Virus record (IMG/VR): IMGVR_UViG_3300033145_001299
Location: 1 to 30,544 of that record
Direction: 5' to 3' (one strand)
DNA: 30,544 nt
Source of the DNA: a virus
The translations under genes were made by a program, and so were the position numbers. Within the stretch, counting starts at the first letter, position 1. The number at the start of each line of letters is the position of its first letter. Below the pieces are notes generated by a model, which saw only the letters and a program-made list of their open reading frames with translations, was not told where the DNA came from and searched no databases. Shown one piece after another: positions 9,413 through 21,549 of the stretch.

Positions 9413-10378
9413 ATGACAGAATTTATGCTTGGAATTAGAGAACAATTTGGAATTGTAGAAGAACAAGGAGGTTATGCAGATATTGGAACAAATACTATGG
9501 CTGCTGAGGGTTTTATTCCTGGAAAAGGAATTGTTGTTAATCAAACATTTTCACATGATTGGAAAGAAGTTTTAAATGCTGGAGATACAAGTAGGAATGT
9601 TAGTTCTTTTGAGAAAGGTACAAAATCATATCCTTTTTCATTGACATTCAAAGTTACAGATTGGAGATTTTTAAAATATTGTGCACATGGAACTGTTACA
9701 AATACAGGGTCAGCACCAACAGTTCATACTTTTACCGAAACAAATGAAGTGACTTCATTTACTGCAGAATGGGCTAAAAGGGCTGGAACAAATGAAGTGA
9801 TTACTTTGACAGGTTGTATAATAAAAAGGGTAAATTTAAAATATAATTCAGGAAGTGCTCCAGGAGAAGGGTTTGTTGAAGCGACATGTGAATGTGTTGG
9901 AAAATCAATATCTATAGGAACAAGTGTAACAACATTGTCAGAACCGACTGATTATGCTTTTCAATTCAGAATGGCAAAATTAACAATAAATAGTAATGAA
10001 ATAGTTGAAGTTAATTCAGGGGAAATAAATATTGATAATGGGATAGATGAAAATGATTCAAGATATTGTAATTCAACTTTAGATCAAGAAATAGGGGAAC
10101 CAATTCCAAAAGTTTCAAGATATACTTGTAGATTTAATATTAATCAAAAAGATAAAACTTTTTCAGATATATGGGATACTGAAGCAGCAATCACAAATAC
10201 AAATAAATTAGAATTAATTAGGGGAACGAATGATGATATAACTTTTACATTTAATACAATTGTTTTAAAAGAAGTACCTTCTTCAAATACAAATATGTCT
10301 GGAATAAATAATTTAGATATGATAGGTACAATTATCTCAACTGGCATTGTTGCAAATGATGCAAGGAGTGATTACTAA
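9413..10378 (+). CDS. Major tail tube protein
   Basis: A 321-residue beta-rich protein. It opens with 'FMLGIREQFGIVEEQGGYAD' and 'EGFIPGKGIVVNQTFSHDW', then 'EKGTKSYPFSLTFKVTDWRF', a strand followed by a loop, as in tail tube subunits that open with a description of the tube inner wall. The middle part 'EVITLTGCIIKRVNLKYNSG' with 'GFVEATCECVGKSI' is the characteristic two-strand section of long tail tube proteins; the end is 'NTIVLKEVPSSNTNMSGINN'. It lies between the terminator and the tail assembly chaperone, the usual place. Such proteins stack as hexameric rings to form the tail. It has its own TATA box 25 bases before the start, and its stop overlaps the chaperone start (taATG). Confidence 0.75.
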   Translation: MTEFMLGIREQFGIVEEQGGYADIGTNTMAAEGFIPGKGIVVNQTFSHDWKEVLNAGDTSRNVSSFEKGTKSYPFSLTFKVTDWRFLKYCAHGTVTNTGSAPTVHTFTETNEVTSFTAEWAKRAGTNEVITLTGCIIKRVNLKYNSGSAPGEGFVEATCECVGKSISIGTSVTTLSEPTDYAFQFRMAKLTINSNEIVEVNSGEINIDNGIDENDSRYCNSTLDQEIGEPIPKVSRYTCRFNINQKDKTFSDIWDTEAAITNTNKLELIRGTNDDITFTFNTIVLKEVPSSNTNMSGINNLDMIGTIISTGIVANDARSDY

Positions 10379-14727: not shown

Positions 14728-15081
14728 ATGATAAATAAAACAAAGACTTTTTTATTATTATTTGGAGTATGGTTTTTAGATTTTTTAACAACAATCTTAT
14801 TTTCAATAAAATTTAAAGGAATTTTAATAGAAGTTAATCCAATTGCTGCTTATTTGCATACTTTTGGTTTTATTGGATGGGCATTATGGTTTATTGGAAC
14901 TTTTTGTTTATTATTAGGTTTTGTTTATTTAGCATTCTTTTTTAAGAAAATTATCGAAGAAAAAGGAATTAAGTCATGGGGTAAATATGCAGTAATTATT
15001 CCTTTAGGGATATTTATTTTAGGAGAATTTATAACTATAATAAACAATATTATAAATATAATTAAATGTACAAATTTGTAA
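14728..15081 (+). CDS. Three-span membrane protein (DUF5658-like)
   Basis: A 117-residue integral membrane protein with helices at about 7-27 ('TFLLLFGVWFLDFLTTILFS'), 47-72 and 87-112. 'WFLDFLTTI' in helix one followed by 'EVNPIAAYL' in the loop resembles the D..TT...E.NP pattern of DUF5658 proteins, whose role is unknown. It lies after the tail genes together with a second small membrane protein, the place of lysis genes in many tailed viruses, so a holin-like role is a possibility. It has its own palindromic TATA element 25 bases upstream and is followed by a strong ribosome site for the next gene. Confidence 0.6.
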   Translation: MINKTKTFLLLFGVWFLDFLTTILFSIKFKGILIEVNPIAAYLHTFGFIGWALWFIGTFCLLLGFVYLAFFFKKIIEEKGIKSWGKYAVIIPLGIFILGEFITIINNIINIIKCTNL

Positions 15082-15301: not shown

Positions 15302-15318
15302 TTTTTTTAAAAAAAAAA

Positions 15319-15370
15319 GGGTAGGACAATTTCGCTGTTAGCCAGTATTTCTTGCCCGTCTTTTTTCTTT
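15319..15370 (+). terminator. Hairpin terminator after the membrane-protein genes
   Basis: GGGTAGGA at 15319-15326 pairs with TTCTTGCCC at 15349-15357 over eight pairs, with two wobbles. A run of six T and then CTTTT follows at 15361-15370, and an A-run precedes the stem. It would end the 14728-15301 transcript; the A/T flanks make it usable from both sides. Confidence 0.6.
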
Positions 15371-15491
15371 TGATATTATCATAAGTTAGTAACTACATTC
15401 TTCCTTTTAAATGTATTGTTTGTAGTGTATAATTTTACAATGCACTTACATTGATTTTGTACTGATTTTTATGGTACAGAATTTTATTCTC

Positions 15492-15530
15492 AAAAGAGGC
15501 GTACCCATAAGTTTATATGCTCTTTTTTCT
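15492..15530 (+). terminator. Hairpin with T-run (second)
   Basis: AAAAGA and GCGTA (15492-15503, with one bulged G at 15498) pair with TATGC and TCTTTT (15516-15526) over 11 pairs, one of them a wobble. The loop is 12 bases and T-rich sequence follows. It looks like an intrinsic terminator but no gene precedes it, so it may be the end of a short RNA. Confidence 0.5.
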
Positions 15531-15543
15531 TATTAATTTAAAG

Positions 15544-15624
15544 AAAGGGATAGATAATTTTACATTTAGTTTCATAAATCGTATTTACTCTTTGGAGTTG
15601 CTTTCGGGCCACTATCCCTTTTTA
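15544..15624 (+). ncRNA. Hairpin RNA candidate with 58-base loop and T-run
   Basis: AAAGGGATAG (15544-15553) and CTATCCCTTT (15612-15621) form a perfect 10-bp stem, followed by T-rich sequence. The loop contains CATTTAGTTTCATAAA (15563-15578), which is the exact reverse complement of 15662-15677. That downstream segment spans the start codon of the micro-gene at 15665. The element could be a terminator, a small antisense-type RNA or both; no promoter of its own is certain. Confidence 0.4.
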
Positions 15625-15635
15625 TTATAACAACA

Positions 15636-15644
15636 TTTATAAAT
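15636..15644 (+). promoter_or_regulatory. TATA box for the 15665 micro-gene
   Basis: TTTATAAAT is centred about 25 bases before the ATG at 15665, so transcription would begin within a few bases of the start codon. It is the same box and spacing seen at 25788 and 14699. Confidence 0.55.
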
Positions 15645-15664
15645 CATATTAATCATGTTATTTT

Positions 15665-19275: not shown

Positions 19276-19452
19276 ATGAATACAGAAAAATTAACAGAAG
19301 AATTTTTTAAAAGAAGATATCCTGAAAAAGACATAAAATTTGAAAAGAAATGTGGATATTTTTGGGAATGGGTTAATCGTTTTAAATCATTAAATCCAGA
19401 ACAATTCATGGATAGACAATCAAAGAAAATATTTAGAGAATTGAAAGGATGA
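19276..19452 (+). CDS. 58-residue unknown protein
   Basis: 'EEFFKRRYPEKDIKFEKKCG' followed by 'YFWEWVNRFKSLNPEQFMD' is helical with many aromatics. It overlaps the annealing-protein gene by ATGA and may act with it. Not recognised. Confidence 0.5.
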   Translation: MNTEKLTEEFFKRRYPEKDIKFEKKCGYFWEWVNRFKSLNPEQFMDRQSKKIFRELKG

Positions 19453-19985
19453 AGAAAATGTTAGTAAAAATATTATTAATAGAAGAAGATAAAATAACTT
19501 TGAAACAAGATGATGTAGAGAAAACTCTTATAATGGAAGATTATGTAATTCCACACGCTAAGTTAGGTGTTGCAGAAATTAAAATTAATGAATCTAAGAA
19601 AGTAAGTTTTATTCAAATGCAAAGTGATGATCCAAACAAAAAGAAAAACTTTACAGATGAAATGGTTACTTTTGAGACTTTATTAAGTGAGGCACATAAG
19701 AGATTTGGAAAGAGACTTGAAATAGAAACAGCAATTGTTAGAGATGGTGACAAAAATGTAATGATAGATTTTGATAAAAAAAGAGCTTTATTTGAAGCAG
19801 AAGTTACTATAAAGGATGAAAAGGATTCAGATAGATGTCAAAGATTTACAGGAACTGGAGATGCAGAAGGGATTACAAATACTTTAATAAAACCACATTT
19901 CATAAGAATGGCAGAAACAAGAGCAATTGTAAGAGCTTTGAAGTTAGCAACAAATAATGCAACTTGTTCAGAGGAAGAAAAATAA
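19449..19985 (+). CDS. Probable single-strand annealing/recombination protein
   Basis: A 178-residue protein. The N-terminal half is beta-rich ('MLVKILLIEEDKITLKQDDV', 'HAKLGVAEIKINESKKVSFI'). The C-terminal half 'RFTGTGDAEGITNTLIKPHF' and 'IRMAETRAIVRALKLATNNA' followed by TCSEEEK contains the pattern 'G.GDA......hiRMAETRAi.RALk.atn...t.EE'. I associate this with virus-coded proteins of the RAD52-like annealing group, where a helix with A-E-T-(R/S)-A-x-x-R-A-L lines the DNA groove. It sits beside a resolvase-like nuclease and ahead of a phosphoesterase, which fits recombination. Another DNA-binding role cannot be excluded. A CAU tRNA begins eight bases after the stop. Confidence 0.4.
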   Translation: MKKMLVKILLIEEDKITLKQDDVEKTLIMEDYVIPHAKLGVAEIKINESKKVSFIQMQSDDPNKKKNFTDEMVTFETLLSEAHKRFGKRLEIETAIVRDGDKNVMIDFDKKRALFEAEVTIKDEKDSDRCQRFTGTGDAEGITNTLIKPHFIRMAETRAIVRALKLATNNATCSEEEK

Positions 19986-19992
19986 GTTGTAC

Positions 19993-20065
19993 GGCGATAT
20001 AGAATAGTGGTTAGTTTGCCGGCCTCATAAGCCGGTGGCCCTTGGTTCGATTCCAGGTATCGCCA
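19993..20065 (+). tRNA. tRNA with CAU anticodon (elongator Met or Ile2)
   Basis: A complete 73-base cloverleaf. Acceptor arm GGCGATA (19993-19999) pairs with TATCGCC (20058-20064), then A73. The D arm has the GG pair in its loop, the anticodon stem CCGGC/GCCGG carries the loop CTCATAA (anticodon CAT), the variable loop has five bases, and the T arm CTTGG/CCAGG carries TTCGATT. No CCA is encoded and no intron is seen. The first pair G1-C72 and the anticodon stem without three GC pairs before the loop argue against an initiator. It could be elongator Met or the CAU isoleucine tRNA that needs agmatidine; the sequence alone does not decide. It lies eight bases after an ORF and two bases before a structured region. 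Confidence 0.9.
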
Positions 20066-20407
20066 TTGGGAGTGTTGATTCCATCTCAGGACGAAGTTTG
20101 ATCTCTTTAAACTTTTTTTCAACACTTCCTTCATAGTCGCCTCTGTGGATCCATCTGCGACAAGGGTCTTTTTCAACCCTCTTTACGATGCCCACAAAGT
20201 CAACAGCTCAAAGAATAACCTGTCAGAGTGGAAGGGAAATATTCAAAAATCATTGTCCTTTGGATAAATGATAGATGTAAAAACTGGTAACTTTTACACG
20301 AAACCTTCCTGTTGACATTTATAGTCACAAAGAGGGATTACATTGGTGACGAGGTTGTTACCAAATTACCTTTACACAATGCCCTCTCCCTTAGGGGATA
20401 ATCAAAA
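20066..20407 (+). ncRNA. Unrecognised structured RNA region directly after the tRNA
   Basis: About 340 bases with no reading frame of substance and visibly more G and C than the neighbouring genes. Stems: 20068-20078 with 20119-20129 (11 bp, one wobble) enclosing AAGTTT/AAACTT (20094-20099, 20109-20114); GTCGC/GCGAC (20136-20140, 20157-20161); AGGGT/ACCCT (20163-20167, 20176-20180); ATCATT/AATGAT (20249-20254, 20267-20272); TGTAAAA/TTTTACA (20276-20282, 20292-20298); AGAGGG/CCCTCT (20331-20336, 20382-20387) enclosing TTGGTGAC/GTTACCAA (20343-20350, 20357-20364). It does not show RNase P, SRP or tmRNA landmarks. RNase Z cutting at the tRNA 3' end would free its 5' end. One RNA or several are possible. 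Confidence 0.55.
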
Positions 20408-20512
20408 ATGAGAAGAAAATATTTAAATAGAGTAAAATCAGAAAAAAAGACTTGGAAACCTAACGAAACTAAACCTTATACAATTAAAATTATAAAATGG
20501 GAAAAACTATAA
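20408..20512 (+). CDS. 34-residue basic micro-ORF
   Basis: 'MRRKYLNRVKSEKKTWKPNE' followed by 'KPYTIKIIKWEKL' begins right after the structured RNA region and overlaps the phosphoesterase start by 16 bases. Composition is normal for the genome, but the length leaves doubt. It may couple translation into the next gene. Confidence 0.35.
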   Translation: MRRKYLNRVKSEKKTWKPNETKPYTIKIIKWEKL

Positions 20513-21549
20513 ATAGTAAATACTTAATAAAGAAGATGACTAAAAAAAAATACAATAAAGAGGAATTAATAGAATTATATATTACTAAAAATTTACCTTA
20601 TAAAAAAATAGCAGAACATTATGGAGTAACATATGGAACAATAAGAGTAACACTTTCACGTTATGGAATTACTCGAAGAAATCATAAAAAAATACAAGAA
20701 TCGAAACAAGAAATTATTTATCAAGATAGTGATGAAATGAAATATTTAAAAAAGAAAGGTTATAATATCGACGATATTGTGGGATTAGCAAAAGCATTAG
20801 AAAAACAAGGGCAAGCAAATACAACAGCTTATACTATTGGTGGTAATTCACATAAATTTATTCTTTTTGGAGATACTCACATTGGTCATATTCAATATGA
20901 TAAACAATTAATGAAACACTTAAATAAAGTTTCTAAAAAAGAAAAAGTTGATTTTGTAGCACATACAGGGGATATCTTTGATGGATGGTATCAAAATAGG
21001 CCAAGTTCAATCTTTGAACAAAATGCAATTGGATTTGATAGACAAATGGCTATGGCTGTTGAAGAATTATCACAATTAGAAGTTCCAATCCATTTTATTA
21101 CTGGAAATCATTCTTATAATACTTTTGTTAGGGGAGCTGGAATAGAAGCAGGGCCAGTACTTGAAACCAAGTTAAAAGAAAAAGGATTAGAAGCTTATTT
21201 TTTAGGTAATGCAGAAGGAGATATTTATTTGAATAATACTTTACTTAGACTTTTACATCCAGATGGAGGTAGTGCATATGCTATAAGTTATAAACCACAG
21301 AAGATAGTTGAAGCATTAGAATCTGGAAAGAAACCAAATATTTTAGCAATTGGGCATTTCCATAAAGCAGAATATTTATTTTATAGAAATGTAAATATTT
21401 TCCAAACTGGAACACTTTGTGGGCAAACTAAATTTATGAAAGGAAAAGGTTTAGCAGCACATAAAGGTTTCTGGTTAGTAGAATTACAAACAAAAGATAA
21501 TGGGCAAATAGATTCAATTATACCTAAATTTTATCCTTCTTACAAATGA
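20497..21549 (+). CDS. HTH-calcineurin-like metallophosphoesterase
   Basis: A 350-residue protein. Residues 22-60 form a helix-turn-helix ('EELIELYITKNLPYKKIAEH' with 'YGVTYGTIRVTLSRYGI'). Residues 118-300 are a calcineurin-like phosphoesterase with metal-binding motifs in order: 'GDTHIGH' (125-131), 'GDIFDGW' (158-164), 'GNHS' (203-206), and 'GHFHK' at about 286-290. This fold covers Mre11/SbcD nucleases and many phosphodiesterases. DNA binding plus a two-metal site suggests an enzyme that acts on DNA or RNA at a chosen place. The neighbours (resolvase-like, annealing) favour a recombination nuclease. No SbcC/Rad50-like partner is in the window. A second start at ATG 20536 is possible. Confidence 0.75.
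   Translation: MGKTINSKYLIKKMTKKKYNKEELIELYITKNLPYKKIAEHYGVTYGTIRVTLSRYGITRRNHKKIQESKQEIIYQDSDEMKYLKKKGYNIDDIVGLAKALEKQGQANTTAYTIGGNSHKFILFGDTHIGHIQYDKQLMKHLNKVSKKEKVDFVAHTGDIFDGWYQNRPSSIFEQNAIGFDRQMAMAVEELSQLEVPIHFITGNHSYNTFVRGAGIEAGPVLETKLKEKGLEAYFLGNAEGDIYLNNTLLRLLHPDGGSAYAISYKPQKIVEALESGKKPNILAIGHFHKAEYLFYRNVNIFQTGTLCGQTKFMKGKGLAAHKGFWLVELQTKDNGQIDSIIPKFYPSYK

Follow-up and report, generated by a model that had tools for sequence, protein, structure and literature searches.

RNAs encoded behind tRNA genes

GOLLD and ROOL are large structured phage RNAs that lie beside tRNAs and form RNA-only cages. The founding env-38 example of GOLLD (RF02032) is located downstream of a Met tRNA, and ROOL (RF03087), a large structured RNA of phages and prophages, often occurs near tRNA islands (PMC12286853). 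In the archaeon Nanoarchaeum equitans, RNase Z generates the 5' end of an sRNA that is encoded immediately behind tRNA-Val (PMC3491384). Here, a stretch of 30,544 nucleotides of viral DNA (IMG/VR record IMGVR_UViG_3300033145_001299, positions 1 to 30,544; hereafter, the window) was analysed, in which 343 non-coding bases (20066–20408, + strand) directly follow a tRNA gene. The best explanation of these bases, at slightly less than an even chance, is a structured non-coding RNA of an archaeal, probably Nanoarchaeota-like, virus that would form the tail of a tRNA transcript, be freed by RNase Z and act as an RNA.

Like the N. equitans sRNA, the candidate RNA lies directly behind a tRNA, and N. 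equitans belongs to an archaeal group that is broadly that of the likely host. However, the N. equitans RNA is of the C/D type and about 60 bases long, whereas the candidate has 343 bases, lacks C/D boxes and is viral. The RNase Z-cut precursors of N. equitans (PMC3491384) provide a precedent for the proposed processing, and release of the candidate by RNase Z can soundly be inferred. With GOLLD it shares the character of a viral non-coding sequence near tRNAs, but GOLLD is usually longer than 800 nt, occurs in bacteria and phages, and its model does not match the stretch at E<10. ROOL has neither a sequence nor a covariance match to the stretch, in which the conserved ROOL fold was not found; the covariance models of both families were run with permissive filters, and no match was obtained at E up to 10. 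On present evidence the window RNA is thus not a member of either family, but a credible orphan that may work in a similar way.

The stretch starts at the expected RNase Z cut and lacks coding signal

The tRNA gene (19993–20065, + strand) was identified by ARAGORN and by Rfam (RF00005, 67.4 bits); it has a CAU anticodon (Met elongator-like or Ile2), and its CCA is not encoded. The first base of the stretch, 20066, adjoins the discriminator A of this functional tRNA and is the position expected from an RNase Z cut, as the original prediction had proposed. Upstream, the stop codon of a gene for a 178-aa protein (19449–19985, + strand) is only 7 bases away from the tRNA, and the two are probably co-transcribed. 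The protein belongs to an unnamed family with the motif IKPHFIRMAETRAIxRAL and has no match in Pfam, PHROGs, NCBIfam or PDB; members of this family are present in 65 viral contigs. Downstream of the stretch lie a small ORF of 34 aa (20409–20510) with no known relatives, whose ATG at 20409 is preceded at a distance of 9 bases by AGGGGA in a possible hairpin (UCCCUUAGGGGA), and a gene for a protein with an HTH and a calcineurin-like phosphoesterase domain (20536–21549, + strand; Pfam, PHROGs and NCBIfam), the C-terminus of which is similar to the small subunit of archaeal PolD (DNA polymerase II). A TATA box (ACTATAAATAG, 20506–20516, + strand) is located about 25 bases before the likely leaderless start of the phosphoesterase gene at 20536. 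Given the 7-base gap between gene and tRNA and the TATA box of the downstream gene, the stretch is not required as a promoter region and is no obvious leader of the next gene either. The locus had been placed in the middle of a recombination cluster, which is borne out in part: the downstream gene encodes a phosphoesterase, but the upstream gene has no family match.

Several features place the virus in an archaeal context. Boxes of the TTTATAAA type are found approximately 25–30 bases before leaderless ATG codons at 14728, 15665, 16526, 20536 and 25817, and related viruses carry tRNAs with long anticodon-loop introns of the archaeal type. Among cellular sequences, the protein closest to the 178-aa family comes from a Nanoarchaeia MAG. 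Because of these TATA boxes and leaderless starts, the tRNA introns in relatives, the PolD-like C-terminus and the Nanoarchaeia match, the host is likely archaeal and probably Nanoarchaeota-like.

No ORF of at least 50 aa starts within 20066–20407 on the + strand. Two ORFs of the − strand (19838–20176 and 20025–20195, with TTG/GTG starts) touch the stretch, but both extend over the tRNA and are not credible. Six-frame translations gave no match to Pfam or PHROGs, and tblastn with one frame matched no phage record; the predicted absence of a gene from some 340 bases is thereby upheld, and no decayed gene is recognisable in these comparisons. The stretch has a G+C content of 0.39, compared with a mean of 0.284 (sd 0.044) in 345-base windows of the whole window. 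The claim that it is richer in G and C than everything nearby is correct in that the stretch is the maximum of its neighbourhood, but a fibre gene near 3.0–3.5 kb is equally rich. Raised G+C in an A+T-rich genome is a classical mark of RNA genes. GC and AT skews are close to zero in the stretch and clearly positive in + strand genes (a purine-rich bias), and in this respect the stretch does not resemble a gene of either orientation.

Folding of the stretch and its alternatives

The minimum free energy computed for the + strand of the stretch is −91.5 kcal/mol, which corresponds to z −2.9 relative to dinucleotide shuffles, and of the 88 tiles into which the window was divided, the one with the stretch is the second lowest. 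Folding of the − strand is equally good (−93.0, z −2.4). The strongest signal (z −4.6) comes from the first 69 bases (20066–20134), while the later 274 bases (20135–20408; G+C 0.40) reach z −2.1, with 12 of 300 shuffles folding equally well. Another long gap of the window, which has no tRNA (15302–15664), shows comparable values (z −2.8 to −3.5). Because the signal is uneven, the − strand is equal and this gap is similar, folding backs an RNA but does not prove it. The gap at 15302–15664 is non-coding, is not linked to a tRNA, has no Rfam match and ends with a GGGAUAG/CUAUCCC stem followed by T5.

Folding and pair probabilities delineate four parts, all on the + strand. The first domain (20068–20129) consists of an 11-bp stem, GGGAGUGUUGA/UCAACACUUCC (pair probabilities of at least 0.87), around an AAGUUU hairpin and a T7 run (20113–20119). 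It is followed by a hairpin AGGGU/ACCCU (20163–20180) inside the pairing UGUGG (20144–20148)/CCACA (20192–20196), and by an 8-bp long-range stem, GUCAACAG/CUGUUGAC, extended by GGAAGG/CCUUCC (20199–20316), within which lies a hairpin UGUAAAA/UUUUACA (20276–20298). The 11-bp stem with its inner hairpin, AGGGU/ACCCU, the extended long-range stem and UGUAAAA/UUUUACA are confident by pair probability. The 3' domain (20323–20387) contains an AGAGGG/CCCUCU stem that is half-certain (pair probability about 0.57) and competes with alternative pairings, namely UUGGUGAC/GUUACCAA inside that stem, a possible pseudoknot of GUCAC/GUGAC across it, and CCCUCUUU (20177–20184) with AAAGAGGG (20329–20336). At least seven local stems had been predicted, including one of 11 bp and others at the 3' end: helices including the 11-bp stem were recovered, but the 3' stem reaches only the probability given above. 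The best self-alignment of the stretch scored 19 against a shuffle mean of 17.7, and internal repeats were dismissed.

Located 48 bases past the tRNA and within the first stem, the T7 run may end an archaeal transcript. The main rival explanation is accordingly a tRNA trailer with a terminator, in which the first hairpin and its T7 end the operon transcript and the remainder is a spacer before the phosphoesterase promoter. The restriction of the strongest folding to 20066–20134 and the TATA box of the next gene agree with such an arrangement, but T7 runs occur within genes of the window as well, and the G+C content, folding and 8-bp long-range stem of the remaining 274 bases are unexpected of an idle spacer in a genome of 28% G+C. 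We regard this explanation as unlikely overall. Still less probable is a cis-acting mRNA element, that is, a structured leader of the 34-aa ORF or of the phosphoesterase gene that would be made by RNase Z removal of the tRNA and govern translation or stability. The AGGGGA before the ATG at 20409 and its possible hairpin are consistent with a leader, but the phosphoesterase gene is equipped with a TATA box of its own and its start is of the leaderless type, the ORF has no known relatives, and in a related contig (L075, see below) a TATA box likewise lies between a structured RNA behind a tRNA and the gene that follows it. The apparent promoter of the next gene makes a leader less likely than an RNA that acts in trans or a tail that is idle.

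In the preferred reading of a tRNA-coupled RNA, we infer that the stretch would be transcribed as the tail of the tRNA transcript and that an RNase Z cut behind the tRNA would generate its 5' end at 20066. The first stem may shield the 5' end of the freed molecule, which would comprise the stretch as a single RNA and act as such, most likely in trans, during infection.

Searches for known families and homologues

A scan of the stretch against Rfam detected only the tRNA, both at gathering thresholds and at a permissive E<10. The covariance models of RNase P RNA, SRP RNA, tmRNA and group I and II introns gave no match, consistent with the original prediction that landmarks of RNase P, SRP, tmRNA or known ribozymes are lacking. 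Neither C (RUGAUGA) nor D (CUGA) boxes are found on the + strand of the stretch, which sets it apart from archaeal C/D box sRNAs. ACA triplets occur in it; archaeal H/ACA sRNAs are defined by hairpins that combine a K-turn with a pocket and precede ANA. Only T/A-rich chance matches were obtained by blastn against phages and plasmids, 371 genomes of the Nanoarchaeia phylum, 68 virus records (21 + 47) and 80 terminase relatives. A search of IMG/VR with the pattern AGTCACAAAG..GTGAC retrieved two contigs (L014 and L015) and a chance match in the tape-measure gene of an unrelated phage (L177). A further pattern retrieved seven loci; in none of them is the match flanked by a tRNA or backed by a profile score that is significant. 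The 3' domain bears a weak likeness to L014:6275–6349 (3 bits, nhmmer E about 16), and both contain AUAGUCACAAAG and a similar possible pseudoknot. L014 was not counted as a homologue because the similar segment lies on the other side of its tRNA and scores only 3 bits. These searches thus yielded no convincing homologue of the window RNA in which compensatory changes could be sought, which weighs against the favoured reading.

A DNA-level element, in which the cluster of inverted repeats serves as a replication origin or as a recombination or packaging site, appears improbable. The equal folding of both strands, the predominance of stems with Watson-Crick pairs only and the neighbouring genes of DNA metabolism would suit such an element, but neither iterons nor tandem repeats were found in the stretch, its skew does not turn, and the tRNA 3' end is not duplicated there. 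Moreover, G+C-rich replication origins are rare. An integration or attachment-site insertion at the tRNA 3' end was rejected, since no direct repeat of that end bounds the stretch (a single copy at up to 3 mismatches). A decayed gene or an imported fragment with fortuitous folding is just as improbable: the deviating G+C content, the orphan sequence and the short resemblance to the L177 tape-measure gene fit it, but the lack of Pfam and PHROGs matches in six frames and of tblastn matches in one frame, the neutral strand skews and folding beyond shuffles of equal composition speak against it.

tRNA tails in related viruses

The tRNA-coupled RNA that we favour has no counterpart at the corresponding place in the nearest phosphoesterase relatives, which lack both the tRNA and the RNA. 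Contig L013, which carries the 178-aa gene, has a tRNA-Ala at the identical position without a structured tail, and L077, L079 and L226 likewise have a tRNA without such an RNA behind it. In other relatives the arrangement recurs, in favour of the tRNA-coupled reading: structured spacers follow the tRNAs of L014 (tRNA-Thr, z −3.7) and L070 (z −3.5), while the 3' flanks of four other tRNAs have z values of about 0. In L192 (record G016, approximately 1501–1707), a tRNA-like gene is followed by about 120 G+C-richer bases whose folding exceeds that of shuffles only weakly (z −1.1).

A tRNA-linked RNA family of approximately 117 nt is present at L070:15842–15956, L075:15498–15615 and L133 (reverse strand, 10091–10206). 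The L070 and L075 copies are similar at E 3.6e-8 and absent from Rfam. They conserve UUGCAGGGCAGNAGUGUCCGAGUUCGU and differ by compensatory changes in two crossing stems: CGCC/GGCG is exchanged for CGCAUC/GAUGCG, and AAGAGAAAGAGA/UCUCUUCUCUU for CCCAGUCGAGAG/CUCUCGCCUGGG. The L070/L075 RNA is a conserved RNA with a compensated pseudoknot. Its strand order resembles P3–P7 of group I introns, but Rfam intron models did not match and such an identity is not claimed. Like the stretch in the window, the RNAs of L070, L133 and L075 are structured and directly follow a tRNA, and the viruses that encode them have the 178-aa gene in common with the window. Unlike the stretch, they are only about 117 nt long and have a strongly conserved core, and the covariance model of the L070/L075 RNA (R1) has no match in the window at E up to 5, nor in the 371 archaeal genomes.

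More broadly, viruses of Nanoarchaeota-like archaea might carry a diverse, unrecognised class of structured RNAs that lie directly behind their tRNAs, are freed by RNase Z and are functionally comparable to GOLLD and ROOL, with the window RNA as the largest example and the L070/L075 RNA as another; this generalisation is rather doubtful. A counterpart of these phage RNAs in an archaeal virus, produced through tRNA processing, would show that such an arrangement has arisen in a second domain of life. The companion L070/L075 family with its compensatory stems is a first concrete handle on this question.

The tRNA-Thr(UGU) genes of L070 (15694–15841) and L229 (407–529) contain anticodon-loop introns of 76 and 50 bases, respectively, and each of these intron-bearing genes is followed by a structured spacer and then by a tRNA-Met.
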